A model generated the notes under the pieces. That model did no database searches, was not told the DNA's origin, and saw only the letters and a program-made list of their open reading frames with translations. This document shows positions 10,856-33,950 of a DNA stretch of 64,000 bases, one piece after another; within the stretch, counting starts at the first letter, position 1, and each line of letters opens with the position of its first letter. This DNA is from Micromonospora luteifusca (GTDB taxonomy: Bacteria; Actinomycetota; Actinomycetes; Mycobacteriales; Micromonosporaceae), in NCBI RefSeq assembly GCF_016907275.1, contig NZ_JAFBBP010000001.1, forward strand, positions 6,872,001 to 6,936,000, read 5' to 3'. The translations under genes and the position numbers were made by a program.

Positions 10856-12520
10856 GTGACGACCCTGGACCGGGATGAGGCCCTTACCCCGGCGGCGCTG
10901 CCCCGGCCGGTCGGTACCGGCGGGCCACTGCCGCTGAGCGTCGCCGCGCCCCTGGCCGTGCTCGCCGGGCTGGCCCTGCTGGTGGCGTTCCCCCCGTACG
11001 GGGTGTGGCCGCTCGCGCCGGTCGGTGTGGCGATGCTGGCCGCCGCCGCACACCGGCGCCGGTTGCGCGCCGGCGCCGGCCTGGGCTTCCTCACCGGGGT
11101 GGCGTTCTTCGCCCCGCTGCTGGCCTGGACGAACCTGCACACCGGTTACCTGCCGTGGGTGCTGCTGTCTCTGCTGCAGGCCGGTTACCTGGCGCTGCTG
11201 GGCGTGGCCACCGCCTGGGTGTCGCCGCTGGCCGACCGCAGCCGCTGGGCGTGGCCGGCGCTGACCGGGCTGCTGTGGGTGGGGCAGGAGGCGCTGCGCG
11301 ACCGCACCCCGTTCGGGGGGTTCCCGTGGGGGCGGCTGGCGTTCAGCCAGGACACCTCGCCGCTGCTGCGCCTGGCCTCGCTGGGCGGTGTGCCGCTGGT
11401 GACCTTCGCGGTGGCGCTCGTCGGCGGGTCGCTGGCCACCGCCGCCTGGCGGGGCTGGGCCGCCGCCCGACGTACCCCCCAGGACGACACGTCGCACGCT
11501 GGCGGCCCGCAGGGTGACACACCTGCGCGGCGGTGGGCGCCGGTGGCCGTACCGGCCGTCGTGGCGGTCGCGTTGACCGCCGGGGCTCTGCTGGTGCCGG
11601 TCGCCACCGCCGGGTCGGGCGCCACCGTCACCGTGGCGATCGTGCAGGGCAACGTTCCGCGGCTGGGCCTGGACTTCAACGCCCAACGGCAGGCGGTGCT
11701 GAACAACCACGTCGACGCCACCATTGAGTTGGCCGCGCGGGTCGCCGCCGGTCAGGAACGCCAACCCGACCTGGTGGTGTGGCCGGAGAACTCCAGCGAC
11801 ATCGACCCGCTGCGCAACCCCAGCGCCGGGACGCGGATCTCCCAGGCCGCCGACGCCATTCACGCGCCGATCCTCGTCGGCGCGGTGCTGCTCGGCCCCG
11901 GCCCCGGGCAGGTCCGCAACGCGGGCATCCTGTGGCGGCCCGGCACCGGCGCGGACATGAGTCAGCTGTACACGAAGCGCCACCCGGTGCCGTTCGCCGA
12001 GTACGTGCCGCTGCGCGACGTCGCCCGGATGGTCAGCAAGCAGGTCGACCTGATCCGCAGCGACTTCGTGGGCGGAAGCACCCCGGGCGTGGTACGCGCC
12101 GGCCCGGCCGTGCTCGGTGACGTGATCTGCTTCGAGGTCGCCTACGACGACGTGGTCCGCGACACCGTCATCGGCGGCGCCCAACTGCTGGTGGTGCAGA
12201 CCAACAACGCCACCTTCGACGTGGCGGAGGCCCGCCAGCAGTTGGCCATGGTGCGGCTGCGGGCCGTGGAGCACGGGCGGCCGGCGTTGATGGCGTCCAC
12301 GGTCGGCGTGTCCGGGTTCGTCGCACCCGACGGGCGGGTAAGCGATGCCACCGGGTTCAACACCCGGGAGGTCGTGGTGCGGCAGTTGCGGCTCGACGAC
12401 GGACGTACCCTCGCCACCCGCCTAGGTTGGTGGCCGGAGGTGGCGCTCGCCGCGCTGACCGTGGCGGCCCTGCTCGGCGCGGCAGTGCTGCGCCGGCGGC
12501 AGCGGGTCATGCCCGGATAG
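10856..12520 (+). CDS. lnt: Apolipoprotein N-acyltransferase
   Basis: A 554-residue membrane enzyme that adds the third acyl chain to the N-terminal cysteine of lipoproteins. The N-terminal ~250 residues carry several hydrophobic segments; the C-terminal half is the nitrilase-fold domain with the expected Glu-Lys-Cys triad: E311 (VVWPENSSD), K374 (YTKRHPVPF) and C425 (GDVICFEV). GTG start with GAGG 7 nt upstream. ppm1 lies 34 nt downstream, an arrangement known from mycobacteria, where the two are fused or adjacent and work together at the membrane. Confidence 0.93.
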   Translation: MTTLDRDEALTPAALPRPVGTGGPLPLSVAAPLAVLAGLALLVAFPPYGVWPLAPVGVAMLAAAAHRRRLRAGAGLGFLTGVAFFAPLLAWTNLHTGYLPWVLLSLLQAGYLALLGVATAWVSPLADRSRWAWPALTGLLWVGQEALRDRTPFGGFPWGRLAFSQDTSPLLRLASLGGVPLVTFAVALVGGSLATAAWRGWAAARRTPQDDTSHAGGPQGDTPARRWAPVAVPAVVAVALTAGALLVPVATAGSGATVTVAIVQGNVPRLGLDFNAQRQAVLNNHVDATIELAARVAAGQERQPDLVVWPENSSDIDPLRNPSAGTRISQAADAIHAPILVGAVLLGPGPGQVRNAGILWRPGTGADMSQLYTKRHPVPFAEYVPLRDVARMVSKQVDLIRSDFVGGSTPGVVRAGPAVLGDVICFEVAYDDVVRDTVIGGAQLLVVQTNNATFDVAEARQQLAMVRLRAVEHGRPALMASTVGVSGFVAPDGRVSDATGFNTREVVVRQLRLDDGRTLATRLGWWPEVALAALTVAALLGAAVLRRRQRVMPG

Positions 12521-12554
12521 CAACAGCCGGTACGCCGGCGGGAGCGGAGGAACC

Positions 12555-13364
12555 ATGATCCAGGCGACCGATACGATCCGACGCCCGGACGAGGTGCCCG
12601 GGGTGGGCCGGGTGCTGGTGGTGGTCCCCACCTACAACGAGGCCGACAACATCGCCGCGATCGTGGGCCGGGTCCGGCGCGCCGCCCCGGCGGTGCAGAT
12701 CCTCATCGCCGACGACAACAGCCCCGACGGCACCGGTGCGATCGCCGACGCCCTGGCCGACGGCGACGCGCACGTGCAGGTGATGCACCGCCAGGGCAAA
12801 CAGGGCCTCGGTGCCGCGTACCTGGCCGGGTTCGGTTGGGCGCGGGAGCGGGGCTATCAGGCGGTCGTGGAGATGGACGCCGACGGCTCGCACGCCCCGG
12901 AGGACCTGCCGGCGCTGCTGGACGCCGCCCGCGACGCCGACGTGGTGATCGGGTCGCGGTGGACCAGGGGTGCGCAGGTGGTCAACTGGCCGCTGCGGCG
13001 GCTGCTGCTGTCGCGCGGCGGCAACCTGTACGCGCGTCTCGCCCTGGGCATGCCCGTCTCGGACGCCACCGGCGGTTACCGGGTGTACCGGATCAGCGCG
13101 TTGGACGCCATCGACCTGGAGTCGGTGACGTCGCAGGGCTACTCGTTCCAGGTGGAGTTGTCCCGGCTGGCGCACCGGGCCGGGGTACGCATCGTGGAGG
13201 TGCCGATCACCTTCGCCGAACGGGAACGCGGGGACAGCAAGATGAGCCCGCGGATCGTGGCCGAAGCGCTCTGGCGGATCACCGCCTGGGGGCTGCAGGA
13301 CCGGCGGCAGGCGGTACGCCGTGGCCTGCACGGCACCTCCACCGGTCAGGCGCGGTGGCCGTGA
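12555..13364 (+). CDS. ppm1: Polyprenol-phosphate mannose synthase (GT2)
   Basis: A 269-residue GT-A glycosyltransferase that transfers mannose from GDP-mannose to polyprenyl phosphate, giving the lipid donor used by membrane mannosyltransferases. VVVPTYNEADNI starts the nucleotide fold, DDNSPDGTG follows, and the metal-binding DAD is in VVEMDADGSHAPEDLP. The late ERGDSKMS segment is typical of DPM1-type enzymes. No C-terminal membrane domain is present, as in Ppm1 D2-type proteins that depend on a partner such as Lnt. A GT39-type mannosyltransferase at the right edge of the window is a possible user of the product. Confidence 0.9.
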   Translation: MIQATDTIRRPDEVPGVGRVLVVVPTYNEADNIAAIVGRVRRAAPAVQILIADDNSPDGTGAIADALADGDAHVQVMHRQGKQGLGAAYLAGFGWARERGYQAVVEMDADGSHAPEDLPALLDAARDADVVIGSRWTRGAQVVNWPLRRLLLSRGGNLYARLALGMPVSDATGGYRVYRISALDAIDLESVTSQGYSFQVELSRLAHRAGVRIVEVPITFAERERGDSKMSPRIVAEALWRITAWGLQDRRQAVRRGLHGTSTGQARWP

Positions 13365-21904: not shown

Positions 21905-22555
21905 TCAGGGTGTCGCGACCGCCGCGCGGGACCGGTCCGCGGCGATCCGGACGGCCAGCGCCGCGAGGGCCGTCCCGGTCACCCACCGCTGCACCCGCAG
22001 CCACACCGGTCGGCGGGCGAAGAACCCGGCCAGCGCGCCGGCGCTGAGCACGATCAGCGCGTTGACGCTCAGCGCCACGGCGATCTGGGTCAGGCCCAGC
22101 AACAGGCTCTGCATCGCCAGCTGCCCCCGCGCCGGGTCGACGAACTGCGGCAGCAGCGACACGTAGAGGATGGCGATCTTCGGGTTCAGCAGGTTGGTGA
22201 CCAGGCCCATGGTGAACAGGCGCCGAGGCGGGTCCGGCGGCAGCGGCGCGGGCGTGAACGGTGAGCGCCCACCGGGACGCAGCGTCCGCCAGGCCAGCCA
22301 GAGCAGGTAGCCGGCCCCGGCGAGCTTCACCACCGCGTACAGCGTCGGCACCAGGACGAAGACGGCGGCGAGGCCGGCGACCGCCGCCGCGAGGTAGACG
22401 CCGAACCCGGCCGCCACCCCGAGCAGCGAGATCAGCCCGGCCCGGCGGCCCTGCGCCACCGACCGGGAGACCAGATAGACCATGTTCGGGCCGGGCGTGA
22501 GCACCAGCCCCAACGCCACCAGCGCGATACCCAGCAGTGCACCCGTGCCCACCAT
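21905..22555 (-). CDS. LysE/RhtB family amino-acid exporter
   Basis: About 216 residues with six predicted helices. LVLTPGPNMVYLVSRSVAQGRRAG is the diagnostic N-terminal LysE/RhtB motif and LVTNLLNPKIAILYVSLLPQF the second conserved block. ATG 22555 gives the standard N-terminus; a GTG at 22582 would add nine residues. It converges on the SDR with only 8 bp between stops. Exports an amino acid or a related small metabolite; which one is not evident. Confidence 0.85.
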   Translation of the reverse strand: MVGTGALLGIALVALGLVLTPGPNMVYLVSRSVAQGRRAGLISLLGVAAGFGVYLAAAVAGLAAVFVLVPTLYAVVKLAGAGYLLWLAWRTLRPGGRSPFTPAPLPPDPPRRLFTMGLVTNLLNPKIAILYVSLLPQFVDPARGQLAMQSLLLGLTQIAVALSVNALIVLSAGALAGFFARRPVWLRVQRWVTGTALAALAVRIAADRSRAAVATP

Positions 22556-22783
22556 GACGGCCCCCGTTTCCCGAACACTCACACCGACCGTAGGCGAGTC
22601 GACCGACCCGGAGCAGGGCCAACGGGCAGGTGGTGGCCTGCCTCGCGCAACCGGTCACCCGGGCGCAAACCTCCCGGGCGGCGCCCACCGGGAATGGTCG
22701 CCAGGCCAGGTGCGCTGATCCGTTGCAGTGCGCGTAGCCGTCCGGAGGCCGCGCGTTACGGTGGCCAGGGGAGGTGCCGCAGG

Positions 22784-23266
22784 GTGACCGATGCGTGGGA
22801 AGCGGCCGTGGAGGCGCAGATCAGGGGAGCCGTACAACGCGGCGAGTTCGACGACCTGCCCGGCATGGGCAAGCCGATCCCCGGCCGAGGAGCACCGTAC
22901 GACGAGTCGTGGTGGATCAAGAGTTTCCTGGAGCGCGAGGCGCTGCCCAGCGACCTGCTCCTGCCCACCCCACTGCAACTGCGTCGGCGTGTCGAGCAGG
23001 TCCCCGACGAGGTCCGTGACCTGCCCACCGAACAGTCCGTACGGGACTTCGTGGCCCAACTCAACGCCCAGATCGTGGCCTGGCTGCGAAACCCCGACGG
23101 CCCCCGCGTAGCGGTGCGGCCGGTGAACGCCGACGAGGTGGTCCGCCACTGGCGCGCCGGACGTGCCCGACGCGAGCAGCTTGCGCCCGCCACCGAGCCG
23201 GTGACCGCCGCGCCGGCCCGCCGGCCCCGCCGCGGCTGGTGGCTGCGCTGGCGTCGCCGGGGCTGA
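22784..23266 (+). CDS. DUF1992 (DnaJ-homologue subfamily C member 28-like) protein
   Basis: A 160-residue protein dominated by the DUF1992 domain: AWEAAVEAQIRGAVQRGEFDDLPGMGKPI, then a segment rich in RRRVEQVPDEVRDLPTE and an FVAQLNAQIVAW helix. The C-terminus is Arg/Trp-rich. GTG 22784 has AGGGGAGG 9 nt upstream. The biochemical role of DUF1992 is not established; it is found alone in bacteria and with a J domain in eukaryotes. Confidence 0.82.
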   Translation: MTDAWEAAVEAQIRGAVQRGEFDDLPGMGKPIPGRGAPYDESWWIKSFLEREALPSDLLLPTPLQLRRRVEQVPDEVRDLPTEQSVRDFVAQLNAQIVAWLRNPDGPRVAVRPVNADEVVRHWRAGRARREQLAPATEPVTAAPARRPRRGWWLRWRRRG

Positions 23267-23311
23267 CCGCCGCACCGCGAACGACGGGCGACACCTTCCC
23301 GCCGGCCGTCG

Positions 23312-23347
23312 GAACTCGTCCCGAACGGATCCGAACAGATCCGAACG
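23312..23347. repeat. Phased CGAAC direct repeats before the MFS gene
   Basis: Three tandem 10-bp units begin CCGAAC at 23321, 23331 and 23341; a fourth GAAC lies at 23312. The 10-bp phase puts the motif on one face of the helix. They end 90 bp before the MFS start and could be a binding site for an oligomeric regulator. Confidence 0.45.
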
Positions 23348-23436
23348 CCTGGTCCCCGCCCGGCCCCCGCCAGCGCGGCTACGGTCTGGGCCGAGCGCCC
23401 TGACGACAGCGGGCGCGGGGACCTGACGGGGGCGAA

Positions 23437-24726
23437 GTGTCCGAGCGCGCCGCGACGTACGCCGAGGTGTTCGCGGTGCGCGAATACCGCCACCTGTTCG
23501 GGGCGTACCTGCTGTCCCTGGCCGGTGACCAGCTCACGGCCGTGACCGTGGCGTACCTGATCTTCACCGAGACCGGCTCCGCCGCCCTGGCCGCGGCCGG
23601 CTACGCCAGTTCCTACCTCGCCTGGCTCACCGGCGGACCGCTGCTGACCGGCCTCGCCGACCGGTTCCCCCGGCGCACCGTCATGATCGCGTGCGACCTT
23701 GGCCGCGCGGCGCTCATTCCGCTGGCGGCGCTGCCGGTCCTCCCCGCGCCGGCCCTGGTGGCGCTCCTCTTCGTGGTCAACCTGATGCGGCCACCGTTCG
23801 TGGCGGCGCGGGCGGCGCTGATGCCGGAAGTGCTCGACGGTGACCGCTACGCCGTGGCCAACGGCGTGGACAACATTTGCGCCCAGGTCGTGCAGGTGGT
23901 CGGTTTCGCCGTCGGGGGGAGCCTGGTGGCGTTGCTGTCGCTGCGCGGTGCCCTGCTGGTGGATGCTGGCACGTTCCTGGTCTCCGCCCTGCTGATCACG
24001 ATCGGCGTGCGTTCCCGGCCCGCGTCCCGACCGCCATCGAGCCCGACCCGTCGTGGCCGTGCGATCGGTCTGCGGGTGATCTTCACCGATACCCGGCTGC
24101 GGTCCTACGTGCTCGTCCTCTGGACGGCCAGCGCCTTCACCTACGCCGCCGAAGGGCTGATGGCACCGTTGGCCCGACAGTACGGCGGTGGCGCCGGCAC
24201 CGTCGGACTGTTGCTCGCGGCGGCGCCGTTGGGGATGGCCGTCGGCGGAGTCGCCCTCACCCGGTTCTGCCCACCGGCGGCCCGACCACGGCTCATCCTG
24301 CCCCTGGCCACCCTGTCGACCGGGGTGCTGACGGTGGCCTGGCTGGTGCCTCCGCTGTGGGTGATGCTGCTGCTGTTGGTGCTGGCCGGCGCGGCGAGCG
24401 CCTTCGCCATCCCGCTCAACGCCCTGTTCGGCCGGGCGGTGCCGACGGAGTACCGGGGACGAGCGTTCGGGGTGGCCATCACCGGTCTCAGCGGGCTCCA
24501 GGGAGCGGCGATGGTCATGGCGGGTCTGGCCGCCGACCGGTGGTCGGCCACCACGGTGATCGGGTTCAGCGGATTGTCGGGCGCGGTGGCGGTCCTCGCC
24601 TTCGTGCCGCTGTGGCCGCGCCGGCCCGCCCCCACACCGGTGACGTTCGACTCTCCGGTCGAACAAGGCCGAACGACTTCGAACACCGACAGCCCTACCG
24701 CCGAAGCGAGCGGCGGCCGACGCTGA
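23437..24726 (+). CDS. MFS transporter (drug-efflux-like)
   Basis: A 429-residue major-facilitator protein with about 12 helices. The N-terminal FAVREYRHLFGAYLLSLAGDQLTAVTVAYLIF and LADRFPRRTVMIACDLGRA (motif A, loop 2-3) are typical of actinobacterial MFS exporters of the enterobactin-exporter/DHA3 type. GTG start after a weak GGGGGCGA. Phased CGAAC repeats lie upstream and again inside its 3' end. It precedes the NRPS-like block by about 270 bp but a separate transporter exists inside that block. Confidence 0.8.
   Translation: MSERAATYAEVFAVREYRHLFGAYLLSLAGDQLTAVTVAYLIFTETGSAALAAAGYASSYLAWLTGGPLLTGLADRFPRRTVMIACDLGRAALIPLAALPVLPAPALVALLFVVNLMRPPFVAARAALMPEVLDGDRYAVANGVDNICAQVVQVVGFAVGGSLVALLSLRGALLVDAGTFLVSALLITIGVRSRPASRPPSSPTRRGRAIGLRVIFTDTRLRSYVLVLWTASAFTYAAEGLMAPLARQYGGGAGTVGLLLAAAPLGMAVGGVALTRFCPPAARPRLILPLATLSTGVLTVAWLVPPLWVMLLLLVLAGAASAFAIPLNALFGRAVPTEYRGRAFGVAITGLSGLQGAAMVMAGLAADRWSATTVIGFSGLSGAVAVLAFVPLWPRRPAPTPVTFDSPVEQGRTTSNTDSPTAEASGGRR
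24660..24684. repeat. Second set of phased CGAAC repeats
   Basis: CGAAC occurs at 24660, 24670 and 24680, again with exact 10-bp period, inside the last codons of the MFS gene. It repeats the pattern seen upstream of the same gene. It may be chance within coding DNA or a second site for the same protein. Confidence 0.3.
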
Positions 24727-24774
24727 GATCACCTGGCGGGCACGGGGCCGCCACGTACGGGAGAGGAGAAGCGC

Positions 24775-24813
24775 ATGCGCAACGTCCGCAACCGTGGCAT
24801 CAGCTGGACCTGA
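24775..24813 (+). CDS. Tiny ORF with strong ribosome site (12 aa)
   Basis: MRNVRNRGISWT, preceded by GAGAGGAGAAG at 24761-24771 with ideal spacing. It lies in the leader of the NRPS-like operon. The strong initiation signal argues for translation; the function, as leader peptide or otherwise, is unknown. A following 13-codon ATG frame (24816-24857) has no clear ribosome site and is not annotated. Confidence 0.4.
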   Translation: MRNVRNRGISWT

Positions 24814-24901
24814 CCATGACGCTCCATTTCGTTGGGAGCGCCTCCAGAGCCACCTGATGGCCGGAGGAGACCGACCACTGTGCCGAGAGGAGGTGTGGGA
24901 G

Positions 24902-24928
24902 ATGCGGAAGGACGACTGCGTGAAGTGA
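24902..24928 (+). CDS. Tiny ORF with near-perfect ribosome site (8 aa)
   Basis: MRKDDCVK. AGGAGGT at 24888-24894 is a near-perfect Shine-Dalgarno sequence with 7 nt spacing to ATG 24902. The ORF ends 16 nt before a perfect 14-bp hairpin, and the first structural gene begins 23 nt after that hairpin. The arrangement is that of an attenuation leader peptide. It contains no run of a single amino acid, so what it would sense is unclear. Confidence 0.45.
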   Translation: MRKDDCVK

Positions 24929-24944
24929 GAGCCGTGTGAAGCGC

Positions 24945-24977
24945 GGTGGGTGGTCGCCGGCGAGGCGACCACCCACC
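24945..24977 (+). promoter_or_regulatory. Leader hairpin, candidate attenuator of the NRPS-like operon
   Basis: Perfect 14-bp stem (24945-24958 with 24964-24977) and a 5-nt GGCGA loop, between the tiny ORF and the first condensation gene. An upstream CGACCAC (24872-24878) can pair instead with GTGGTCG (24950-24956) in the left arm, so a competing structure is possible. No U-tract follows. Confidence 0.55.
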
Positions 24978-25000
24978 CACCCCTCGACGCTGGAGAAGCC

Positions 25001-26188
25001 ATGCACAATCCGGGTGACCACCCGCTCACCATGGGTCAGCTCTCGATGTGGCGCGCCCTCTCGGTACGCCCCCCGGAGCAGCTGTGGGAGTCCAACCTGG
25101 ACCTCACCTGGTCGACTCCGGCCGGGACCACCGAGGAACAGGTTCGGCAGGCGCTCACCGCCCTGGCCGTGCGGCACGAGTCACTGCGCACCGTGTACCG
25201 CGCGGCCGATGATCCCGGCGGCGTGCGGCAGGTGGTCCTGCGCGACCCGATCGTGCGGTTCACCGAGGCGTCCGTACGCGACCCGTTCGACCTGACCGCT
25301 CAACCGGCATGGCGAGCCTGGGTGCGTACCCCCGACGACGGCGGAACACCGCAGGTCCGTGTCCTGATCCACCACATTGCGGCCGATGGCGCCGCGGTGC
25401 GGATCCTGGAGTCCGACTTTCACGCACTGCTGCGCGGTGACCGTCCCGCCGATGCCCCCACTCCGCGCGAGATGGCCGAACGCCAACGCTCCGACGCCTT
25501 CCGGGCCAAGCTGGTCGCAGCCGGCGAATACCGTCGACGGATCGTCGCTGCCGCACCAACGGTGCCGGTGTCCCGGGGTCCGATGGTGCGGGCTTGCGCA
25601 CACACCGGCATTCCGCACGGCGCGGTTCGTGACGCGGCACGGCAGCTGGGGGTCACCCTGCCCACCCTGCTGCTCACGGTGTACGCGCAGACGCTGGCCA
25701 CGACCACGGACCGGCCAGATCACCTGCTCTGGCAGTTGTCCGCGAACCGGATGGACCCCACGGTGCGGCGTCTGGTGTCCTCCATGACCCAGCTGGTGCC
25801 CATGCTGGTCGAGTGCGACCCCGACGGACCGCTGCGCCCGCTGGCCCGTGACATCAACGTCGCGGCGGTGCGAGCCCTGCAGCACGGCGTGTACGACCCG
25901 TTCGACGTCGAGCTCACGGACTTCGACCACGGCACCTTCTTCACCTTCATCCCGGCGCCGGCCGACGCCGCTTCCGACCCCGCGCCGTCGACGCCGGAGC
26001 CCGGGCGGATCGAGTTCCTCGCTCCCCGCGCGTACAGCGGAGCAAGCTTCTACGTGCTGGCGGAGGTGCACCCGTACGTGCAGCTCACCATGCGGGTGAT
26101 GCGCAGCGGGTACGGGCGCCCCGAGGTGGAACGCTTCCTGAGCACCATGACCGACCTGCTGCTGCGCGCGGTCAAGGACGCGGCATGA
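25001..26188 (+). CDS. Free-standing NRPS condensation-domain protein (C1)
   Basis: A 395-residue protein consisting of one condensation domain. The N-terminal LTMGQLSMWRA is C1-like, LAVRHESLRTVY is motif C2, and the catalytic HHxxxDG is intact at H124-H125-I-A-A-D129-G130. It would form an amide or ester between carrier-bound and free or carrier-bound partners. ATG 25001 has GGAGAAG just upstream; an in-frame GTG at 24950 would run through the hairpin. It overlaps the next gene by 4 nt, first in a seven-gene compact operon. Confidence 0.85.
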   Translation: MHNPGDHPLTMGQLSMWRALSVRPPEQLWESNLDLTWSTPAGTTEEQVRQALTALAVRHESLRTVYRAADDPGGVRQVVLRDPIVRFTEASVRDPFDLTAQPAWRAWVRTPDDGGTPQVRVLIHHIAADGAAVRILESDFHALLRGDRPADAPTPREMAERQRSDAFRAKLVAAGEYRRRIVAAAPTVPVSRGPMVRACAHTGIPHGAVRDAARQLGVTLPTLLLTVYAQTLATTTDRPDHLLWQLSANRMDPTVRRLVSSMTQLVPMLVECDPDGPLRPLARDINVAAVRALQHGVYDPFDVELTDFDHGTFFTFIPAPADAASDPAPSTPEPGRIEFLAPRAYSGASFYVLAEVHPYVQLTMRVMRSGYGRPEVERFLSTMTDLLLRAVKDAA

Positions 26189-27516
26189 CCAGCAGTCTGT
26201 GGCGACACCGTGACTTCATGGTGTTGTGGTCGGGCAAGACCCTCAGCGAGGTCGGCGACGCGGTGTCGATGCTGGCCATTCCGCTGCTGGCCGTCACCGT
26301 GCTGGACGCCTCCGCCGTGGAGGTCGGTGTCCTCAGCGCCACCCGGATGGTGGCCTACCTGTTTCTCTCCCTGCCCGCCGGGGTGTGGGTGGACCGGATG
26401 CGCAAACGCCGGGTGATGGTGGTGTGTCACTTCGTGCGGGCCGGGCTGGTGGCCACCGTCGCCGTCAGCGCGTGGGCCGGCTGGGTCACGATGACGCAAC
26501 TGTGGATCGTGGCGCTGCTGTCCAGCGTCTGCACCGTGCTGTACGAGACCGCGCACCAGAGTTTCCTGCCGTCGATCGTCAGCAGAGACCAGTTGATCGA
26601 CGCCAACGGCAAGCTGACGACCACGTACTCGGTCTCGCGGATCGCCGGGTACGGCGTGGGCGGCGCGCTGGTGTCGGCGCTGGGCGCGGCGCGTACCGTG
26701 GGCGTCGACGCGCTCGCCTACGTGCTGAACGCCGTGTCCCTCCTGCTGATCCGTGATGCCGAGCAGCGGCCGGCCGTGGCGCGGCGTCGGGACTTCCGCC
26801 GCGAGCTGGGCGACGGCCTGTCCTTCGTGTTCCGCCACCCGGTCATGCCCCGACTGGTGGCGGCCGCGGCCTCGTTCAACCTGTTCAGTCAGATGCTCTT
26901 CGCGTTGGCGGTCCTGTACCTCGTACGCGACCTGCGCCTGAGCGAAGGCATGGTCGGTGTGGTGATGGGGCTGACCACGCTGGGCGGGATCGTCGGTGGC
27001 CTGGCGTCCGCACGGCTGGCGCGCATGGTGGGCACGGCCCGGATCATCTGGATCGCCCCGCTGGCGATCGGCTGGACGGTGCTCCTCGTACCGGCCGCCC
27101 AGTCCAGCTGGGGTCCTGCCGCCTACACGGTCGGCATGGCGGGAATGGGAGTGGTGTTCGCCATCTTCAACTCGGCGTCAGTCAGCTACCGACAGATGGT
27201 CTGCCCTCCGGAGCTGCTGGGCAGGATGACGGCGTCCGTCCGATTCGTGCTCTTCGGGGTGATGCCGGTGGGCGCCCTGGCGGGCGGGCTGCTCGGCAGT
27301 TGGCTGGGGGTGCGACCGACGCTGTGGATCGCGGCCGTCGGCGTGTGGGCGTCCGGCCTGTTGCTCTACTTCTCGCCGCTGCGGCGGTGGCGTGACCTGC
27401 CGGACGAGGCCGACGCGCCAGCCGACGGGCAGCCGACGACGAGCTTCCCGGCGCCGCACGGGCGGTCGCCGGTCGACCCGGCCGGCAAGGCCATCGGAGG
27501 TGTACGAGGTGCATGA
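26185..27516 (+). CDS. MFS exporter of the NRPS-like operon
   Basis: A 443-residue MFS protein with about 12 helices; the N-terminus RHRDFMVLWSGKTLSEVGDAVSMLAIPLLAV and the loop GVWVDRMRKRRVMVV (motif A) place it with DHA3-type exporters. ATG start overlaps the C1 stop by 4 nt, and its 3' end overlaps the next condensation gene by 8 nt. Its location makes it the probable exporter and self-protection determinant for the product. Confidence 0.86.
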   Translation: MTSSLWRHRDFMVLWSGKTLSEVGDAVSMLAIPLLAVTVLDASAVEVGVLSATRMVAYLFLSLPAGVWVDRMRKRRVMVVCHFVRAGLVATVAVSAWAGWVTMTQLWIVALLSSVCTVLYETAHQSFLPSIVSRDQLIDANGKLTTTYSVSRIAGYGVGGALVSALGAARTVGVDALAYVLNAVSLLLIRDAEQRPAVARRRDFRRELGDGLSFVFRHPVMPRLVAAAASFNLFSQMLFALAVLYLVRDLRLSEGMVGVVMGLTTLGGIVGGLASARLARMVGTARIIWIAPLAIGWTVLLVPAAQSSWGPAAYTVGMAGMGVVFAIFNSASVSYRQMVCPPELLGRMTASVRFVLFGVMPVGALAGGLLGSWLGVRPTLWIAAVGVWASGLLLYFSPLRRWRDLPDEADAPADGQPTTSFPAPHGRSPVDPAGKAIGGVRGA

Positions 27517-28606
27517 GCAGCCGTTCGGCCAGCGCATTCTCTCCTGGACGGGTGGGCCGGCGAACCCCGACCGGTTCGTCGCACTGGGCGGGCTCCGGCT
27601 GCCCGCGGAACCCGACCCGGCCGCCCTGCGGCACACCCTGGACACGATCCTGGCCCGGCACCCCGTGCTGGGTGCGGGGCCGGTCCCGCTGCGCACGGTC
27701 GACGACGTGTGGGCGGCGGCCGCCGCGGGCCGCTACCCGCCAGATGCGAAATGCCTGCTCTGGGCGTACCTGGCCGGTCGCGAGCTGCTGCTCGTGGCGC
27801 ACCACAACGTGTCCGACCCCTGGTCGATGCGACTGCTGCTGCGCGAGGTGCTGAAGCCGGGGACCGGGCCAGCCCCCTCCTACCACGGCAGCACGTCGAC
27901 CCCGGCGCCCAAGCGGGTCAACCGGTCCGTGCCGTTCTGGCGCGAGATGCTCGCCGACGTACCGGCCCTGGCCGCCGCCCCGGGCTCCGGCGACGACGAG
28001 GGCACGGCCGAGATCAGAACGCCGAGCGGCATCACCCAACAGCAGGCGGCCGAGGTCGCCCGGGCCGTGCGCAGCACACCGTTTGTCGTCCTGCTCACCG
28101 CGTTCGCGCAGGCCCTCACCCCGCTCAGCCCGGGCGAGGCCGTCATCCCCGTGCTGACGCACGGCCGGCAGCGCTCCGACTGGGACACCGTGGGGCTGTA
28201 CATGAACGCGCTGCCGGTGCGGCTCCGCACGCTGACGGTGGGCGCGGTGCACCGCGCGTTCGCCGAGGCGTACGCGCACGAGATCCCATTTCCGGTGCTG
28301 CTGGACACGGTGCCGCAGGCCGACGCGCTGTTCGCCGACGGTGGGCCGGGCCTGGCCCAGTTCGAGGTGATCCAGGTGCCCGAGGGCGCCGGGATCGAGC
28401 CGCTGACGATCCCGCCGGGGCTCGGGCTGGGCGGGCCGTTGCTGCCCGTCAACGGAATGACGTTCTGGCTCGAGCCGGGCGCGGGCGGCGCCTACACCGT
28501 CTGCGTGCGCTACCGCCGCTCGTACTCCGAGGCCGACATGCAAGCCCTGGTCCGCCGATTCATCGACAGTTGGGAGGAGATCCGTGCAGACGCGCAGCGA
28601 GCTTGA
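27509..28606 (+). CDS. Second free-standing condensation-like protein (C2) with altered active site
   Basis: About 365 residues, shorter than a full C domain (about 430). The catalytic segment reads LLVAHHNVSDPWSM, so HHxxxDG has become HHxxxDP (H98, H99, D103, P104): the second His is kept and the Gly is replaced by Pro. The N-terminal RHExLRT motif is weak (LARHPVLGAG). GTG 27509 is chosen because GGAGG at 27496-27500 is 8 nt away. It may be catalytic with an unusual acceptor, or a structural or docking partner. Confidence 0.72.
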   Translation: MHEQPFGQRILSWTGGPANPDRFVALGGLRLPAEPDPAALRHTLDTILARHPVLGAGPVPLRTVDDVWAAAAAGRYPPDAKCLLWAYLAGRELLLVAHHNVSDPWSMRLLLREVLKPGTGPAPSYHGSTSTPAPKRVNRSVPFWREMLADVPALAAAPGSGDDEGTAEIRTPSGITQQQAAEVARAVRSTPFVVLLTAFAQALTPLSPGEAVIPVLTHGRQRSDWDTVGLYMNALPVRLRTLTVGAVHRAFAEAYAHEIPFPVLLDTVPQADALFADGGPGLAQFEVIQVPEGAGIEPLTIPPGLGLGGPLLPVNGMTFWLEPGAGGAYTVCVRYRRSYSEADMQALVRRFIDSWEEIRADAQRA

Positions 28607-28814
28607 GACGATGTTGACCCGGCTCTGGAGCGAAAAGTTGAACGTCACACCGGTGGGTGTCGACGACGACTTCTTCGCCCTCGGCGGCGATTCGCTGCTC
28701 GCCGCCGACCTGCTGATGGATCTCTACGATCAGCTCGGCGTCGAGGTTGACGCTGCGGTTCTGTTCCTCAAGCCGACCATCGCCGAGCTGGTCGACGAGG
28801 TGCTGGCCGCATGA
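28584..28814 (+). CDS. Free-standing peptidyl carrier protein
   Basis: A 76-residue four-helix carrier protein. The phosphopantetheine site is S37 in DDDFFALGGDSLLAADLLMDL. GTG start lies inside the end of the C2 gene (23-nt overlap) and the stop overlaps the P450 ATG. As the only carrier in the operon it should be the loading point for the amino acid activated by the adenylation protein and the platform for the P450. Confidence 0.92.
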   Translation: MQTRSELETMLTRLWSEKLNVTPVGVDDDFFALGGDSLLAADLLMDLYDQLGVEVDAAVLFLKPTIAELVDEVLAA

Positions 28815-30019
28815 GGACCCCGCCGTGTGGGCACGCCCGCCCCCCGGGCAGGGTCGACCTCGCCGACCCCGACCTGCATGGCAGCGGCGACCCACACGCC
28901 GCGTGGCGAAGGCTGCGCCGGTGGGATCCCGTCAGCTGGCAACCGGTGCAGGACAGGTCGGGCTTCTGGGCGGTCACCCGCCACACCGACGTCAGAACCG
29001 TCCTGGCCGACCATGGCAGGTTCACCTCCACCGGTGGGGTGGTGCTCACCATGCTCGGCCGGCCCGAACCGGCGCAGAACCAGCAGTTCGCGGCGACCGA
29101 CCCGCCACGGCACGGCCTCATCCGGGGGCCGCTGCAGCAGCACATGACCGCACGTGCGGTGGCACGACACGAGCCGGCCATCCGTTCCTTCGTACGGGAG
29201 ATGCTCCGGCCCGCCGACGGGCTCCTGGACTTCGCCTCGCTCACCTCCGCCCTGCCGATGGCCTTCCTGGGACCACTGATGGGGATCCCGGCGGCGGACT
29301 GGCCCACCCTGGCGCGGTGGGTGTCCATGTCGGTGGCCGAACAGGACCCGGACGTCATGCTGCCGGGCGGGCCGTCCGCGACCCTCGACCGCGGACACCG
29401 GGAACTGTTCGCGTACCTGCTCGACCTGGTGATCTCACACCGGAAGCGTCCGCGCGGCGACCTGGTCGACCTGTTGGGGGCCATGCCGCTGCGCGCAGGG
29501 GCGATCGTGGCCAACTGCTACAGCCTGCTGCTCGGCGGCAGCGCGGCCTTCCCGCACGTGCCCCGCGCGGTCCTGGCCGAGCTGATTCGCACCGGGCGTT
29601 ACGAGGACTGGGCCCGGCGGCCCGAGCGGATCGGCCGGGCGGTGGAGGAGGCGCTACGGTTCACCTCACCGGCCGGGCACTTCATGCGACTGGCGACGAG
29701 CGACACCACCCTCGGCGGCGTACGCGTCGCGGCCGGCGACGCCGTCGTGGTGTGGCTCGGGTCGGCGAACCGTGACGAGTCCGTTTTCCGCGACCCCGAC
29801 ACCCTCGACCCGGACCGGCACCCGAACCGGCACCTGGCCTTCGGGGAGGGGCGGCACTACTGCCTTGGGGCGGCGGTCGCCAGGCTGACGTTGCGCGTCT
29901 TCTTCGAGGAACTCTTCGCCACCTTCACGTCCTTCGAACCGGCTGGCGAGGTCGAGCGGGTACGGTCGATCTGGTTGGGCGGGATCAAGCGGATGCCGGT
30001 CCGGGCCGGTCGGCGGTGA
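28811..30019 (+). CDS. Cytochrome P450
   Basis: A 402-residue bacterial P450. Haem-binding loop HLAFGEGRHYCLG with C351, and the ExxR helix EEALRF are normal. The I-helix, usually AGxET/DT, reads LLLGGSAAF (242-247): both the acidic residue and the Thr that deliver protons to oxygen are missing. That pattern occurs in P450s that work on carrier-bound substrates or use substrate-assisted oxygen activation. Next to a free carrier protein and a free adenylation domain, the likely job is oxidation, for instance beta-hydroxylation, of a carrier-bound amino acid. Confidence 0.88.
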   Translation: MRTPPCGHARPPGRVDLADPDLHGSGDPHAAWRRLRRWDPVSWQPVQDRSGFWAVTRHTDVRTVLADHGRFTSTGGVVLTMLGRPEPAQNQQFAATDPPRHGLIRGPLQQHMTARAVARHEPAIRSFVREMLRPADGLLDFASLTSALPMAFLGPLMGIPAADWPTLARWVSMSVAEQDPDVMLPGGPSATLDRGHRELFAYLLDLVISHRKRPRGDLVDLLGAMPLRAGAIVANCYSLLLGGSAAFPHVPRAVLAELIRTGRYEDWARRPERIGRAVEEALRFTSPAGHFMRLATSDTTLGGVRVAAGDAVVVWLGSANRDESVFRDPDTLDPDRHPNRHLAFGEGRHYCLGAAVARLTLRVFFEELFATFTSFEPAGEVERVRSIWLGGIKRMPVRAGRR

Positions 30020-31317
30020 TCCCCGAGGCGCTGGCCGCCCAGCTGCGCTCGCGCCGGGAGGCGCTGGCTGTGGTGGATCCCGAGCAGTCCCTGACGTACG
30101 CCGACCTGGACGGCTTGAGCGGCGCGGTCGCCGCCCACCTCGAGCAGCAGGGGGTGGCCGTCGGAGAACCGGTCATCGTGCACACCCGGCTGTCGCGCTG
30201 GGCCATCGTGGCGATGCTCGGCGTACTGAGAGTGGGCGCGCGCTACGTCCCCATCGACGCGGCCTTCCCCGCGACCCGCCGCGAGTTGATGGCCGCCGGC
30301 AGCGGCGCGCGCGTCACACTCACCGAGGAGCTGCTGGCGACGTTGCGTCCGGCCCGCTTCGACTGGCGGGACGGGCCGGACGCGTACACGCTGTTCACCA
30401 GCGGCTCGACCGGCGTGCCGAAGGCGGTCACGGTGTCTCGGGCGGCCCTGAGCTACTCGACCAGAGCCCGGCTGGAGTACTACGGTCGCCCACCCGAGCG
30501 GTTCATGCTGTGCTCGTCCATCTCCTTCGACAGCTCCGTGGCGGGCGTCTACTGGACGCTGTGCACGGGAGGCACCCTGGTCATCCCGAGCGACCGACCG
30601 TTCGACGTGCGGGCGATCGTCCGGGCCAGCGCCGCGCACCGGCCCACCCACACGCTGATGGTGCCGTCCCTGTACCGCCTGGTGCTGCGTTCGCCGGTGC
30701 CCAGCCTGACAACCGTGATCGTGGCCGGGGAGAGCTGCCCGCCCGGCCTGGTCGACCTGCACCACGAGCGGATGCCCGAGGCGACGCTCTACAACGAGTA
30801 CGGCCCCACCGAGTGCACCGTCTGGAGCACCGTGCACAAATGCGCGGTGGGCGAGGACCCGGTGCCCATCGGCCGCCCGATCCCCGGCACGGCGGTCTCG
30901 ATCGACGACGGCGAGCTGTGCATCTCCTCGCCCGGCGTGGTGTCCGGTGCGCCGATGTACCGCACCGGCGACCGGGTCAGCATGGGCGCCGACGGTCTGC
31001 TGCGGTACCACGGACGCGTCGACGAGCAGCTTAAAATTGGCGGGATGCGTATCGAGCCGGCCGAGATCGAGCACGCGCTGATGGCCCACCCGGCGGTGCT
31101 CCTTGCCGGCGTGGCCGTCCCCTACCGGGGTGTCGCGTACGTCGTCTGTGGCGAGCCGGTGGAGCAGAAGGCTCTGCGCGCACACCTGCTCGACCGGCTG
31201 CCCGCCGTGGCCGTGCCCACCGTGTTCGAGCGGGTGGAGTCCCTGTCCACTCTGCCCAACGGCAAACTCGACCGGCGTGCCCTGAGCCGGTCCGACCACA
31301 CTCGACATGACGGTTGA
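30016..31317 (+). CDS. Free-standing adenylation domain, histidine-like pocket
   Basis: A 433-residue stand-alone NRPS adenylation protein: A3 LFTSGSTGVPKAV, A5 YNEYGPTEC, A7 YRTGD, A8 GRVDEQLKIGGMRIEPAEIE and A10 LPNGKLDR with K417. Aligning to the phenylalanine domain GrsA by eye gives the ten pocket residues D172, S173, A176, M215, I235, A237, E261, V269, W270, K417 (DSAMIAEVWK). D-S...A-E-V...K resembles histidine codes such as the bacitracin DSELTAEVCK. Asp at the first position indicates an alpha-amino acid. It should load the adjacent carrier protein. No MbtH-like gene is in the window. Confidence 0.85.
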   Translation: MIPEALAAQLRSRREALAVVDPEQSLTYADLDGLSGAVAAHLEQQGVAVGEPVIVHTRLSRWAIVAMLGVLRVGARYVPIDAAFPATRRELMAAGSGARVTLTEELLATLRPARFDWRDGPDAYTLFTSGSTGVPKAVTVSRAALSYSTRARLEYYGRPPERFMLCSSISFDSSVAGVYWTLCTGGTLVIPSDRPFDVRAIVRASAAHRPTHTLMVPSLYRLVLRSPVPSLTTVIVAGESCPPGLVDLHHERMPEATLYNEYGPTECTVWSTVHKCAVGEDPVPIGRPIPGTAVSIDDGELCISSPGVVSGAPMYRTGDRVSMGADGLLRYHGRVDEQLKIGGMRIEPAEIEHALMAHPAVLLAGVAVPYRGVAYVVCGEPVEQKALRAHLLDRLPAVAVPTVFERVESLSTLPNGKLDRRALSRSDHTRHDG

Positions 31318-32782
31318 GCCGCGCGCGTGCACGGCGCGTTTCCCCGTGACCGCCGCCTACGCGGGCACCGCCCGGATCGACGAGCTGCGTGCCACCGAGT
31401 ACCGGCACCTCGACCGCGATGGCCGCGTCTACCTCGACTACACCGGTGCCGGGGTGGCCGCACAGGCACAGGTCATCGCCCATCACGACCGGTTGCTCGC
31501 GGGCCTGTACAGCAACCCGCACTCGGAGAACCCCACCTCGGAGGCGAGCGGCGGGCTGGTCGAGTCGGCCCGGCGGGCGGTGCTCGACTTCTTCCGCGCC
31601 GACCCAGGCGAGTACGCGGTCATCTTCACGCCCAACGCCAGTGGCGCATGCCGGCTGGTGGGCGAGGCGTACGGCTTCGGGCGGGGCCGCCCGCTCGTGC
31701 TGACGTGGGACAACCACAACTCCGTCAACGGCATCCGGGAGTACGCCCGCGCGGCCCGCTCGCCGGTCCGCTACGTGCCGCCAGCCGGGCCCGACCTGCG
31801 GGTGGCCGAAGCCGATGTGCTCGCCGCGCTGGCCGGGGGTAGAGGCGGGCTTGTCGGCCGTCCCTGGTCGCGCGGGTCGGGCCCCGCGGGGCTCTTCGCG
31901 TACCCGGCGCAGAGCAACTTCACCGGCGTGCAGCATCCGCTCGGATGGGTGGACCTGGCCCAGCAGCACGGGTACGACGTGCTGCTCGACGCCGCGGCCT
32001 TCGCCCCGACGAACCGGCTGGACCTGAGCGTCGTACGGCCGGATTTCGTCTGCCTGAGCTGGTACAAGCTCTTTGGCTACCCCACCGGTGTCGGGGCGCT
32101 GCTCGCCCGACGTGACGCGCTGACCCGGCTGCGCCGCCCCTGGTTCGCGGGTGGCACCATCCGGGCGGTCAGTGTGCAGGGTGACTGGCATCAGCCGATG
32201 GGGGACGAGACGGGGTTCGAGGACGGCACGCTCAACTTCCTCAGCATCCCCGACGTGGAGTTCGGGCTGCGCTGGCTCGACTCGATCGGCGTGGACCTCG
32301 TGCACACCCGGGTCGGCCTGCTCACCGGCTGGCTGCTGCAGCGGCTGACCGCGTTGCGGCACCGCAACGGCCAGCCGCTGGTCCGGGTCTATGGGCCGTC
32401 GACGGGCGACGCCCGGGGTGGCACCCTGGCCTTCAACTTCCGCTACCCCGACGGCACGCTCGTCGACGAGCGGCTCGTCGCGTTCGAATCCTCGGCTGCC
32501 GGGTTCGCCCTGCGGACGGGTTGCTTCTGCAATCCGGGCTCGGCCGAGGCCGCCTTCGGGATCAACCGCGGGCTGCTGCGCCGTACGAACCTCGCGCACG
32601 TCGAGACGATCGACCAGCATCTCGCCGCGCTGGGGCTGCCCACCGGCGGCGCGGTACGCGTCTCCTTCGGTCTGGCCTCCACCGCGGCGGACGCGGAACG
32701 CTTCCTGGCCTTCAGCGAGTCGACCTACCTGGACCGTGCCGGTCCCGCCGACGTCCGGCTGGCACCACGGATCCGTTGCTGA
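31307..32782 (+). CDS. MoCo-sulfurase-like PLP enzyme (class V aminotransferase fold)
   Basis: A 491-residue fold-type I PLP protein. DAAAFAPTNRLDLS gives the PLP-binding Asp (D228) and SWYKLFGYPTGVG the aldimine Lys (K254). The C-terminal LRTGCFCNPGSAE (C406, C408) matches the persulfide-forming cysteine region of molybdenum-cofactor sulfurases and cysteine desulfurases. A MOSC domain, which completes true MoCo sulfurases, is absent; an unrelated MOSC gene lies at 48535. Last gene of the NRPS-like operon, so it may supply sulfur to the product or perform C-S cleavage or elimination on it. Which one is open. Confidence 0.82.
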   Translation: MTVEPRACTARFPVTAAYAGTARIDELRATEYRHLDRDGRVYLDYTGAGVAAQAQVIAHHDRLLAGLYSNPHSENPTSEASGGLVESARRAVLDFFRADPGEYAVIFTPNASGACRLVGEAYGFGRGRPLVLTWDNHNSVNGIREYARAARSPVRYVPPAGPDLRVAEADVLAALAGGRGGLVGRPWSRGSGPAGLFAYPAQSNFTGVQHPLGWVDLAQQHGYDVLLDAAAFAPTNRLDLSVVRPDFVCLSWYKLFGYPTGVGALLARRDALTRLRRPWFAGGTIRAVSVQGDWHQPMGDETGFEDGTLNFLSIPDVEFGLRWLDSIGVDLVHTRVGLLTGWLLQRLTALRHRNGQPLVRVYGPSTGDARGGTLAFNFRYPDGTLVDERLVAFESSAAGFALRTGCFCNPGSAEAAFGINRGLLRRTNLAHVETIDQHLAALGLPTGGAVRVSFGLASTAADAERFLAFSESTYLDRAGPADVRLAPRIRC

Positions 32783-32822
32783 AATGCGCCCCGGCCGCTG
32801 CCGCCCACGACCGAGGTGCGAG

Positions 32823-33398
32823 TCAGTCGACTGCGGCCCGCCACACCCAGGATGTGCGCCTCGCCCGGCCGGGCAGCTCGACCCGGCCGGTCATCCAGAG
32901 CAGCACGTCGGGTGCGGGGCCGTCCGGGGCGTCCGGAAAGAGCCGGCGCAGCACCACCGTGCTCAACCGCTGCGGCGGCTGCCACGGCACGCCGAGGCCG
33001 ACGGTGATGTCGTACGTGTGCAGCAGGGTCTCCGCCACGCCCATCGCGGCGAAGCCCTCCGGGTCGCAGGGGCCGAAGTGCCAGGCCCGCGCGTCCGACC
33101 CGGTGCCATCGACTGCCACGGCGAGCAGCCCGGCGCAGGCGCGCACCACGGCGAGCACCTGCGTCGGGCTCGCGGTGGGGGAGACCCGCAGGTCGTACGG
33201 CAGGTAACCGTCCTGCGGGAGGCCGGTGACCTGGCCGGCGTACCCGAGCAGGTCGTGCGCGACGTGCGCCGCGGTGGTCCAGCAGCTCCAGGTCAGAGTG
33301 CCGGCCGGCACCGACCAGTCGCGCTCCTGGTGCAGGAGCAGGACCTGGGTCATCTCGTCGGCCGCCTGGAGCAGGTCGGCGCCGGTCACCGCTGACAT
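32823..33398 (-). CDS. Mycothiol-dependent maleylpyruvate isomerase-family (DinB-like) protein
   Basis: About 191 residues of the MDMPI_N/DinB-like helical bundle: WTTAAHVAHDLLGYAGQV carries the first metal-ligand His and AETLLHTYDITVGLG the C-terminal His pair of the family. Members use mycothiol or bind a metal in detoxification and isomerisation reactions. ATG 33398 has a GAGGG site nearby. It converges on the NRPS-like operon with 40 bp between stops, and may be unrelated to it. Confidence 0.75.
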   Translation of the reverse strand: MSAVTGADLLQAADEMTQVLLLHQERDWSVPAGTLTWSCWTTAAHVAHDLLGYAGQVTGLPQDGYLPYDLRVSPTASPTQVLAVVRACAGLLAVAVDGTGSDARAWHFGPCDPEGFAAMGVAETLLHTYDITVGLGVPWQPPQRLSTVVLRRLFPDAPDGPAPDVLLWMTGRVELPGRARRTSWVWRAAVD

Positions 33399-33443
33399 CC
33401 GTCGACCCTCGCAGTGCGGACCCGGGTGGCGCAATCGGAATCG

Positions 33444-33950
33444 TCAGCCGGCCGCCGAGGGATGCGAGTCGAGGCGGGCCGTCGAACCCGCCGCCAGAGC
33501 CTGGTCGACGTGCTCGACGCCCGCGCGGACAAGGTCGCCGTACTGGTCGGCCGGCAACTGCTCGACGAGGCTCCGAGCCGTCGCCAGATGTGCCCGGGCC
33601 ATGGCCGTGTTGCTGAGCCGGCGGTGCACGTCGGCCAGGTTCAGGTGCAGCGACGGCAGGAAGCCCTGCACCTGGAGGGCGTGATGGTATTGCCGGGCGC
33701 GGTCGTCGGTGAGGTCGGTGACGGCGGCCAGGGCGCGTTCGTCCCACCTCAGTTCGGCCTCGGCGGTGTCCTGCAGGTCGGCGAGGTAGTGGGCGAGGGT
33801 GCAGCGGTGCAGCGCGTCACCGGTGGGGCCGATCTCGTCCCACAGTGCGGTGAGCAGCTCGCGGGCCTGGCCCGGCGTACCGGAGTGGCCGAGCTGCACC
33901 GCTTCGATGATGCGCGTCATGGTCGGGTCGGGTGTCGGCTGGTCGTCCAT
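33444..33950 (-). CDS. Hypothetical helical (TPR-like) protein
   Basis: A 168-residue soluble protein rich in Ala, Leu, Arg and His; helices such as ALHRCTLAHYLADLQDTAEAELRWDERALAAVTDLT and LHLNLADVHRRLSNTAMARAHLATAR look like tetratricopeptide repeats. Related small TPR-like proteins are common in actinobacteria without assigned function. Same strand as the preceding DinB-like gene. Confidence 0.65.
   Translation of the reverse strand: MDDQPTPDPTMTRIIEAVQLGHSGTPGQARELLTALWDEIGPTGDALHRCTLAHYLADLQDTAEAELRWDERALAAVTDLTDDRARQYHHALQVQGFLPSLHLNLADVHRRLSNTAMARAHLATARSLVEQLPADQYGDLVRAGVEHVDQALAAGSTARLDSHPSAAG

Follow-up and report, generated by a model that had tools for sequence, protein, structure and literature searches.

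A putative type II non-ribosomal peptide synthetase operon in Micromonospora luteifusca and the tiny open reading frames upstream of it

In a 64,000-nucleotide stretch of the Micromonospora luteifusca genome (contig NZ_JAFBBP010000001.1, positions 6,872,001 to 6,936,000), hereafter termed the window, seven overlapping genes encode separate condensation, carrier and adenylation proteins of a non-ribosomal peptide synthetase (NRPS) together with an exporter, a P450 and a cysteine-desulfurase-like protein, which raises the question of what so dissociated a system, served by one carrier, would assemble. Gene coordinates and a Pfam scan place all seven on the + strand in the order C1-MFS-C2-PCP-P450-A-PLP, with successive junctions overlapping by 4, 8, 23, 4, 4 and 11 nt, respectively. 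We read the operon, with a probability of about 0.63, as a type II (fully dissociated) NRPS unit that makes, oxidises and exports a small amino-acid conjugate. Its genes, in window coordinates, are:

25001..26188, + strand: C1, free-standing condensation protein, intact HHxxxDG (PF00668, 57.2 bits)
26185..27516, + strand: MFS exporter (PF05977, 128 bits)
27509..28606, + strand: C2, free-standing condensation protein, HHxxxDP variant (PF00668, 33.5 bits)
28584..28814, + strand: PCP, discrete carrier protein, 76 aa, GGDSL (PF00550, 61 bits)
28811..30019, + strand: P450, Cys ligand and ExxR, I-helix GGSAA with neither acid nor Thr (PF00067, 73 bits)
30016..31317, + strand: A, discrete adenylation protein (PF00501, 189 bits; AMP-binding_C, 30 bits)
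31307..32782, + strand: PLP, cysteine-desulfurase-like, accessory to the core (Aminotran_5, PF00266, 110 bits)

Start codons of C1 and C2 were picked via comparison with relatives. The motifs read are HHIAADG in C1, HHNVSDP in C2, GGDSL in PCP, FGEGRHYCLG in P450 and Lys 254 in PLP. Coordinates and Pfam scores confirm a sequence-only reading of this locus, which had described seven same-direction genes of these families overlapping by 4 to 23 nt. Its further statement that all domains are separate, with one carrier and no thioesterase, is borne out as well, a thioesterase being absent from the ten operon-region proteins scanned for families. Large NRPS genes just outside the window, which that reading named as a ground for its refutation, were looked for as well. 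The host genome is a single contig of 7,163,903 bases, in which PF00668 is found at six places at an E-value of 0.001, two being C1 and C2; the other four lie at ~0.69 Mb (two), 5.89 Mb and 6.09 Mb, compared with 6.90 Mb for the operon. The nearest is ~0.81 Mb off, and a large NRPS neighbour was thus ruled out.

As expected of a type II NRPS, the A protein is discrete, as is the carrier, which has its Ser site in GGDSL, and the C proteins are discrete too, C1 with HHxxxDG and C2 nearest in the Protein Data Bank (PDB) to the 4znm/4zxw chain (E 9e-35; next match 3.6e-18), which bears the name C-domain type II peptide synthetase and which we take to be SgcC5. In the C-1027 system SgcC1 is the A protein, SgcC2 the PCP and SgcC5 the C protein. 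Both sets comprise discrete A, PCP and C and lack a thioesterase, while the operon differs in having a P450 in place of the halogenase and flavin hydroxylase, two C proteins and no recognised acceptor pathway. The earlier statement that the gene set is unrecognised thus stands in part, as the C-1027 type II NRPS is a precedent for a dissociated, single-carrier NRPS, whereas no assigned product for the operon was found in a limited literature search, a weak negative. Bleomycin-type assembly lines, named in the earlier reading for their discrete C and PCP proteins, give way to the enediyne type II NRPS, which is closer as judged by the best PDB match of C2 and by P450 relatives beside or fused to carriers. 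SgcC5 is described as a free-standing enzyme capable of forming ester and amide bonds (PMC10212144).

Distribution of the core cassette

A C2 search of 160 same-genus genomes gave matches in 30 at 1e-10 and clear orthologues, 46-100% identical, in 13 (labelled G000, G005, G074, G019, G062, G041, G010, G107, G048, G038, G148, G111 and G063). The core order is kept in 11 and rearranged in two, which answers the syntenic-block comparison called for by the sequence-only reading and argues that the arrangement is not due to chance. Eight of the 13 loci are arranged MFSup-C1-MFS-C2-PCP-P450-A-PLP, where MFSup is a second exporter gene upstream of C1. Three (G048, G038 and G148) display C1-MFS-C2-PCP-P450-A without adjoining MFSup or PLP, and in G111 and G063 C1-MFS-C2-A occupies one strand and PCP-P450 the opposite strand, with MFSup divergent from C1. 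The G107 locus is split across two contigs. Genes of relatives were called with our own codon-based caller, which puts the window P450 start late (28946), and family names for neighbour genes derive in part of the survey from single-linkage clustering.

Within the family, 89 of 350 genomes matched the C2 profile at 1e-20. Twenty further loci were surveyed, two of them from a phylum search; seven of the 20 (L134, L135, L136, L140, L141, L143 and L144) combine A, PCP and P450 with a C2-like protein, and the other 13 are without the complete set. C2 identity to the same-genus locus L078 is 32-42% in the seven, except for L134 at 71%. The A-PCP-P450-C2 cassette is therefore present in at least 20 genomes (13 same-genus and seven further), all of the window's family and with varying neighbours, a lower bound as weaker P450 and C matches lie partly outside the neighbourhood survey (for C2, weak matches in G013, G022, G061, G066, G076, G085, G099, G140 and G149, and also G907 and G953). 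Among 396 genomes of the phylum, five matched at 1e-20, the window's own at 9e-205 and the others at 7e-30 or weaker; occurrence of the cassette outside the family was ruled out, as the window's own was the sole strong match in this set. The heart of the system is A-PCP-P450-C2. The seven-gene unit described earlier holds as regards the core order, kept in relatives, but PLP is inconstant, and MFSup and two tiny open reading frames (ORFs) upstream had been overlooked.

Neighbouring genes of the more distant cassettes are diverse. In L135 (675-12902) the cassette adjoins a dehydroquinate-synthase-like cyclase, aminotransferases including one of DegT type and a luciferase-like monooxygenase, perhaps pointing to an aminocyclitol acceptor, and L136 has a fatty-acyl-AMP-ligase-like protein, an AurF-like protein and a second C. 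As these neighbours differ, the cassette may serve different acceptors. L136 also contains a 66-aa Cys-rich ORF (1174-1374) with C-terminal CVRSTSCCC, followed by an unassigned 176-aa protein, an ABC exporter, a signal-peptidase-like protein and the A-C-PCP-P450 set; the ORF has no Pfam or NCBIfam match and looks like a peptide precursor. Eight other loci (L137, L138, L139, L142, L145, L147, L148 and L151) display an A protein (30-34% identical), a PCP and a nearby C protein, and represent other NRPS families in which C is often apart.

Adenylation, condensation and P450 proteins

The specificity code of A, read at the presumed GrsA positions, is DSALIAEVWK, and the motifs around the code residues are nearly invariant among aligned relatives. 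Seven of the ten letters agree, without an aligned reference sequence, with DSELTAEVCK, presumably the code of the histidine module of bacitracin; a literature search for this string found no paper. The substrate of A is tentatively L-histidine, to be taken as a lead and not as a result.

Relatives of the P450 and their gene neighbours place it in a carrier-linked family. A P450 profile searched against the PDB ranked 4l0e third (254 bits) and 3mgx fifth (216 bits), which we take to be P450sky and OxyD, respectively. The window P450 has in common with these two enzymes the NC..(L/I)(L/I)G I-helix context and an adjoining carrier gene, while they display GGDET and GGNET at the place of GGSAA in the window protein. 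The acid is missing from all 11 members aligned and from 13 of 13 relatives at newly surveyed loci; the Thr, lost in the window type, is present in those 13 relatives as well as in L140, L141, L143 and L144. Loss of the acid was dropped as a special trait since it is family-wide, and the Thr loss alone is particular to the window type.

At 1e-90 the P450 profile matched 35 of the 160 genus genomes. Twelve loci were followed up, and G057, weaker matches in G006, G065, G069, G071, G072, G088, G116, G119 and G144, and a second G032 match lie outside this set. L238 (G073; 9349-13017) alone has a >50% identical A of the window's family. There, a P450 (59%) is fused in-frame to a PCP, and the next genes encode the homologous A (57%) and a protein resembling a thioesterase. 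Neither a C nor an MFS match was found at this locus, which represents a shorter variant of the core. Like P450s lie near A and PCP domains in L235-L237, L240, L241 and L244, and in several of the new loci those domains belong to ordinary NRPS proteins and the P450s are 45-53% identical. In L236 (8591-12685) and L239 (7032-11093) three consecutive P450s of the carrier-linked family are found between PCP and A domains. The L238 fusion is suggestive of on-carrier tailoring and, with the A/PCP neighbours of the relatives, supports a P450 that would act on a carrier-bound residue. In nikkomycin- and novobiocin-type A-PCP and P450 cassettes, one amino acid is loaded and then oxidised on the carrier. 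The likeness to these systems (NikP1, NikQ, NovH and NovI), judged by architecture, lies in carrier-bound oxidation, with P450s of the genus adjoining A-PCP and thioesterase-like proteins (L235, L236), whereas in the operon A and PCP are separate and C proteins replace the thioesterase.

Several observations weigh against the type II NRPS interpretation. The histidine assignment depends on GrsA positions and a bacitracin code that are both presumed, and two C proteins per single carrier lack an explanation. C1, with HHxxxDG kept across 13 aligned sequences, is remote from the free-standing enzyme 4znm (0.0014), its best PDB matches being LgrA chains (E 1e-6). In C2 the HHxxxDG motif is altered, with Pro for Gly and, in L078 and L079, Gln for the first His; since the 4znm/4zxw chain itself reads HHTAADA at this point, the variant is no wide departure. 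The structural model of C2 (mean predicted local distance difference test score, pLDDT, 52) is too poor for a structure search. Two CYP125MRCA chains outscore 4l0e in the PDB search and CYP126 outscores 3mgx. Finally, with the acid-alcohol pair of the I-helix lacking its acid throughout the family and its Thr in the window clade, plain hydroxylation is possible but not assured.

The upstream exporter, tiny open reading frames and hairpin

The conserved unit begins upstream of C1 and includes MFSup and two tiny ORFs, termed mini1 and mini2:

23437..24726, + strand: MFSup, MFS exporter, in the conserved unit (MFS_1, 98.5 bits)
24775..24813, + strand: mini1, 12-codon ORF MRNVRNRGISWT with ribosome-binding site GGAGAGGAG (pattern conservation)
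24902..24928, + strand: mini2, 8-codon ORF MRKDDCVK with ribosome-binding site GGAGGTG (pattern conservation)
24945..24977, + strand: GC-rich hairpin, 14-bp stem, possible terminator or attenuator, 23 nt 5' of the C1 start

MFSup is found in 22 of the 160 genus genomes at a threshold of 1e-100, the copies other than the window's own being 64-94% identical, and it adjoins the core also in the rearranged L078 and L079. The mini1 consensus, M-x5-R-G-[IV]-S-W-T, matches 23 of the genomes, or 22 when G028, whose match ends in TGG and is a false one, is discounted, while a reversed control pattern gave none in 160. MFSup and mini1 occupy an identical set of 22 genomes. The pattern itself fixes the length and the residues of codons 7-12, so independent support comes from the MFSup loci, found without it, all 22 of which have mini1 within ~200 nt 3' of MFSup. 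The ORF follows MFSup even where the exporter points away from C1 (L078, L079 and L134), and remains intact near fragmented MFSup genes in G914 and G112 (L134:11983-12570 and L182:6192-7465), where sequencing error is possible. A stricter pattern found 12 stretches in a genome contig collection, 11 from Micromonospora and one from Micromonosporaceae bacterium KJ-029. We take mini1 to be a real gene that accompanies MFSup.

Of the 15 genus genomes in which C2 and the core are seen together (the 13 above plus G110 and G026), 14 have the pair, as do eight of the other 145. This distribution would suit an MFSup that acts in export or resistance; the pair is lacking from G073, the genome with the fused variant. 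Ten orphan loci hold MFSup-mini1 without an adjoining core, which lies elsewhere in G038 and G148 and was not found in the other eight genomes. Across seven of these loci, which form one clade, mini1 differs at 2% of bases per pair, compared with 33-45% in flanks whose divergence is overstated by ungapped comparison. Codons 7-12 of 24 mini1 copies change synonymously only, I/V apart, a constraint enforced in part by the pattern, and in L140 (13938-14165) mini1 is doubled in tandem as the near-identical MSRKTNRGVSWT and MRRKTNRGISWT.

Constraint of this kind, together with the doubling and the presence of mini1 at all 22 MFSup loci, would fit an NRPS-RiPP hybrid, RiPP denoting a ribosomally synthesised and post-translationally modified peptide. 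In such a hybrid the dissociated NRPS would attach an oxidised amino acid to the peptide encoded by mini1 (and perhaps to that of mini2), which would serve as ribosomal acceptor or scaffold and be exported by MFSup. Genes of only 18 bp are known for biarylitides, the smallest known RiPP precursors (PMC13417212). These precursors are five residues long and of MRYYH type, with a P450 nearby. The likeness extends to a gene too small for routine annotation, a nearby P450 and an actinobacterial host. The differences are the lengths of 12 and 8 codons compared with 5, a P450 that is carrier-linked and orphan mini1 copies without any P450; neither tiny ORF is of MRYYH type, and no dedicated search for pentapeptide genes was made. 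The persistence of MFSup-mini1 in eight genomes where no core was found speaks against a hybrid, as do cores without mini1 upstream of C1 (L073-L075) or anywhere in the genome (G048), its absence from the scanned ranges of L135, L136, L141 and L144, and the lack of a peptidase family in the window operon. We regard the hybrid as quite improbable. If such a system did exist, the 12-residue peptide ending in RG[IV]SWT would rank among the smallest natural-product genes, inherited along with its MFS exporter.

The mini2 consensus, M-x-K-x-D-C-x-x, is confined to operon-bearing genomes, 11 of the 160 and exactly those with C2 identity of at least 61%, and its control pattern gave 0 matches. The hairpin starts 16 nt beyond the end of mini2 and ends 23 nt before C1; given this short gap to C1, transcription of C1 probably crosses it. 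A short ORF with a ribosome-binding site followed by a strong hairpin before an operon is the arrangement of a leader-peptide attenuator, and the likeliest role of mini2 is that of a leader peptide. Covariation support for the hairpin is modest: across eight sequences two stem pairs are changed on both sides, outer pairs are broken in two sequences and the RNAalifold covariation term is +0.09. No conserved antiterminator was seen by eye, and an Rfam scan of 22500-33500 gave nothing at the gathering threshold.

Strong hairpins of the same kind follow mini1, without mini2 in the orphans, in L078, L079 and most orphan loci, and an 868-aa regulator of one family is found near L069, L071, L072, L076, L078 and L079. 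These features, with the position of mini2, make it conceivable that the tiny ORFs are regulatory, either because mini2 (perhaps mini1) is a leader that controls hairpin read-through before C1 or because mini1 is an exported signal sensed by a regulator with helix-turn-helix (HTH), NB-ARC and TPR domains. The next called gene is convergent in eight of the ten orphan loci in which mini1 is conserved, thus mini1 is not simply a leader of a downstream gene, a point that bears on the mini1-as-leader version alone. Neither the antiterminator result nor the covariation term favours regulation, and the window, L067 and L068 are without this regulator nearby; on balance this regulatory reading appears possible but less likely than not. 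Large regulators adjoin the operons of relatives at L073:13779-16448 and L069:2737-5343 but not the window's copy, the HTH, NB-ARC and TPR domains being checked in the L069 protein only. Mini1, which accompanies one exporter in all 22 of its genomes, is missed by routine gene prediction, and its peptide may be a precursor, a signal or a regulator.

The PLP enzyme, flanking genes and proposed mechanism

PLP is a 491-aa protein with Lys 254, the motif RTGCFCNPG and an invariant C-terminal Cys. SufS-type cysteine desulfurases share its fold and pyridoxal phosphate Lys at ~21% identity, and SufS is a Foldseek match of the predicted model (E 1.7e-21; mean pLDDT 75). The curated family TIGR01979 is matched at 85.8 bits, below its cut-off of 475.1. 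PLP adjoins the core in eight of the 13 same-genus loci with a C2 orthologue and is absent beside L073-L075, L078 and L079. At 1e-40 it is present in nine of the 15 cassette-bearing genomes checked, with a fragment only in G110, and was not found in six; in G111 and G063 it was not found anywhere in the genome. In the order, 31 of 397 genomes have it. In-operon copies form one clade (support 100/99), from which a single recruitment of PLP follows. PLP was rejected as a core member from its distribution, its absences and the single-clade tree; it is an add-on that is dispensable for the core. Stand-alone orthologues (L080-L099) display the invariant C-terminal Cys and, by eye, often adjoin a permease-like protein (F3).

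The desulfurase-like fold and motifs, the 11-nt overlap with A and the single clade would also be expected if PLP were integral to the window pathway and the product carried cysteine sulfur. Such a route from cysteine, through Pau31, has been proposed for the paulomycin isothiocyanate (PMC4425429). Against this, core loci exist without PLP, 20 loci around stand-alone or distant copies have no C1, C2, PCP or A match (two of them, L090 and L092, contain distant P450s, 29-35%), the invariant residues are common to in-operon and stand-alone copies alike, and no sulfur-carrier or ThiF-like family was found among the operon proteins scanned. We consider an integral role for PLP unlikely.

Ten flanking proteins belong to ordinary families (LysE, DJC28, FMO-like, SDRs, NmrA, regulators and an FAD monooxygenase), and on either side several genes recur next to loci without the operon; an extension of the cluster into the flanks is thus unlikely. 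In seven orphans that share the window flanks (L178, L181, L182 and L184-L187), the sequence past the hairpin continues into the stretch at ~32817, from which it follows that the C1-PLP block is present or absent there as a unit. In the MFSup tree the window, L067 and L068 (98/91) fall together with seven orphans (99/96), a topology silent on loss versus gain. In L179 and L180 a stretch resembling the mini2 ribosome-binding site, seen by eye before the hairpin, hints at loss of the operon.

In the type II NRPS unit proposed here, A would activate one alpha-amino acid, tentatively L-histidine, and load it onto the discrete PCP, where the P450 would oxidise the bound residue. C2 would then transfer the residue to a small amine- or hydroxyl-bearing acceptor and C1 would make a second bond; because release would proceed by C2 transfer, no thioesterase would be needed. 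The MFS proteins would export the product, MFSup probably also protecting the producer, and PLP, recruited in one lineage, may supply sulfur. C1 would probably be transcribed from upstream of the hairpin, with mini2 probably a leader peptide. Families, motifs, conservation, distribution and the linkage of the tiny ORFs are observed in the sequences, whereas catalysis, substrate, acceptor, export and regulation are inferred from them. The product suggested by the sequence-only reading, one oxidised amino acid coupled to a partner and then exported, is plausible. The operon looks like a member of an uncharacterised, compact type II NRPS family in and around Micromonospora, and it is small enough to be expressed whole.

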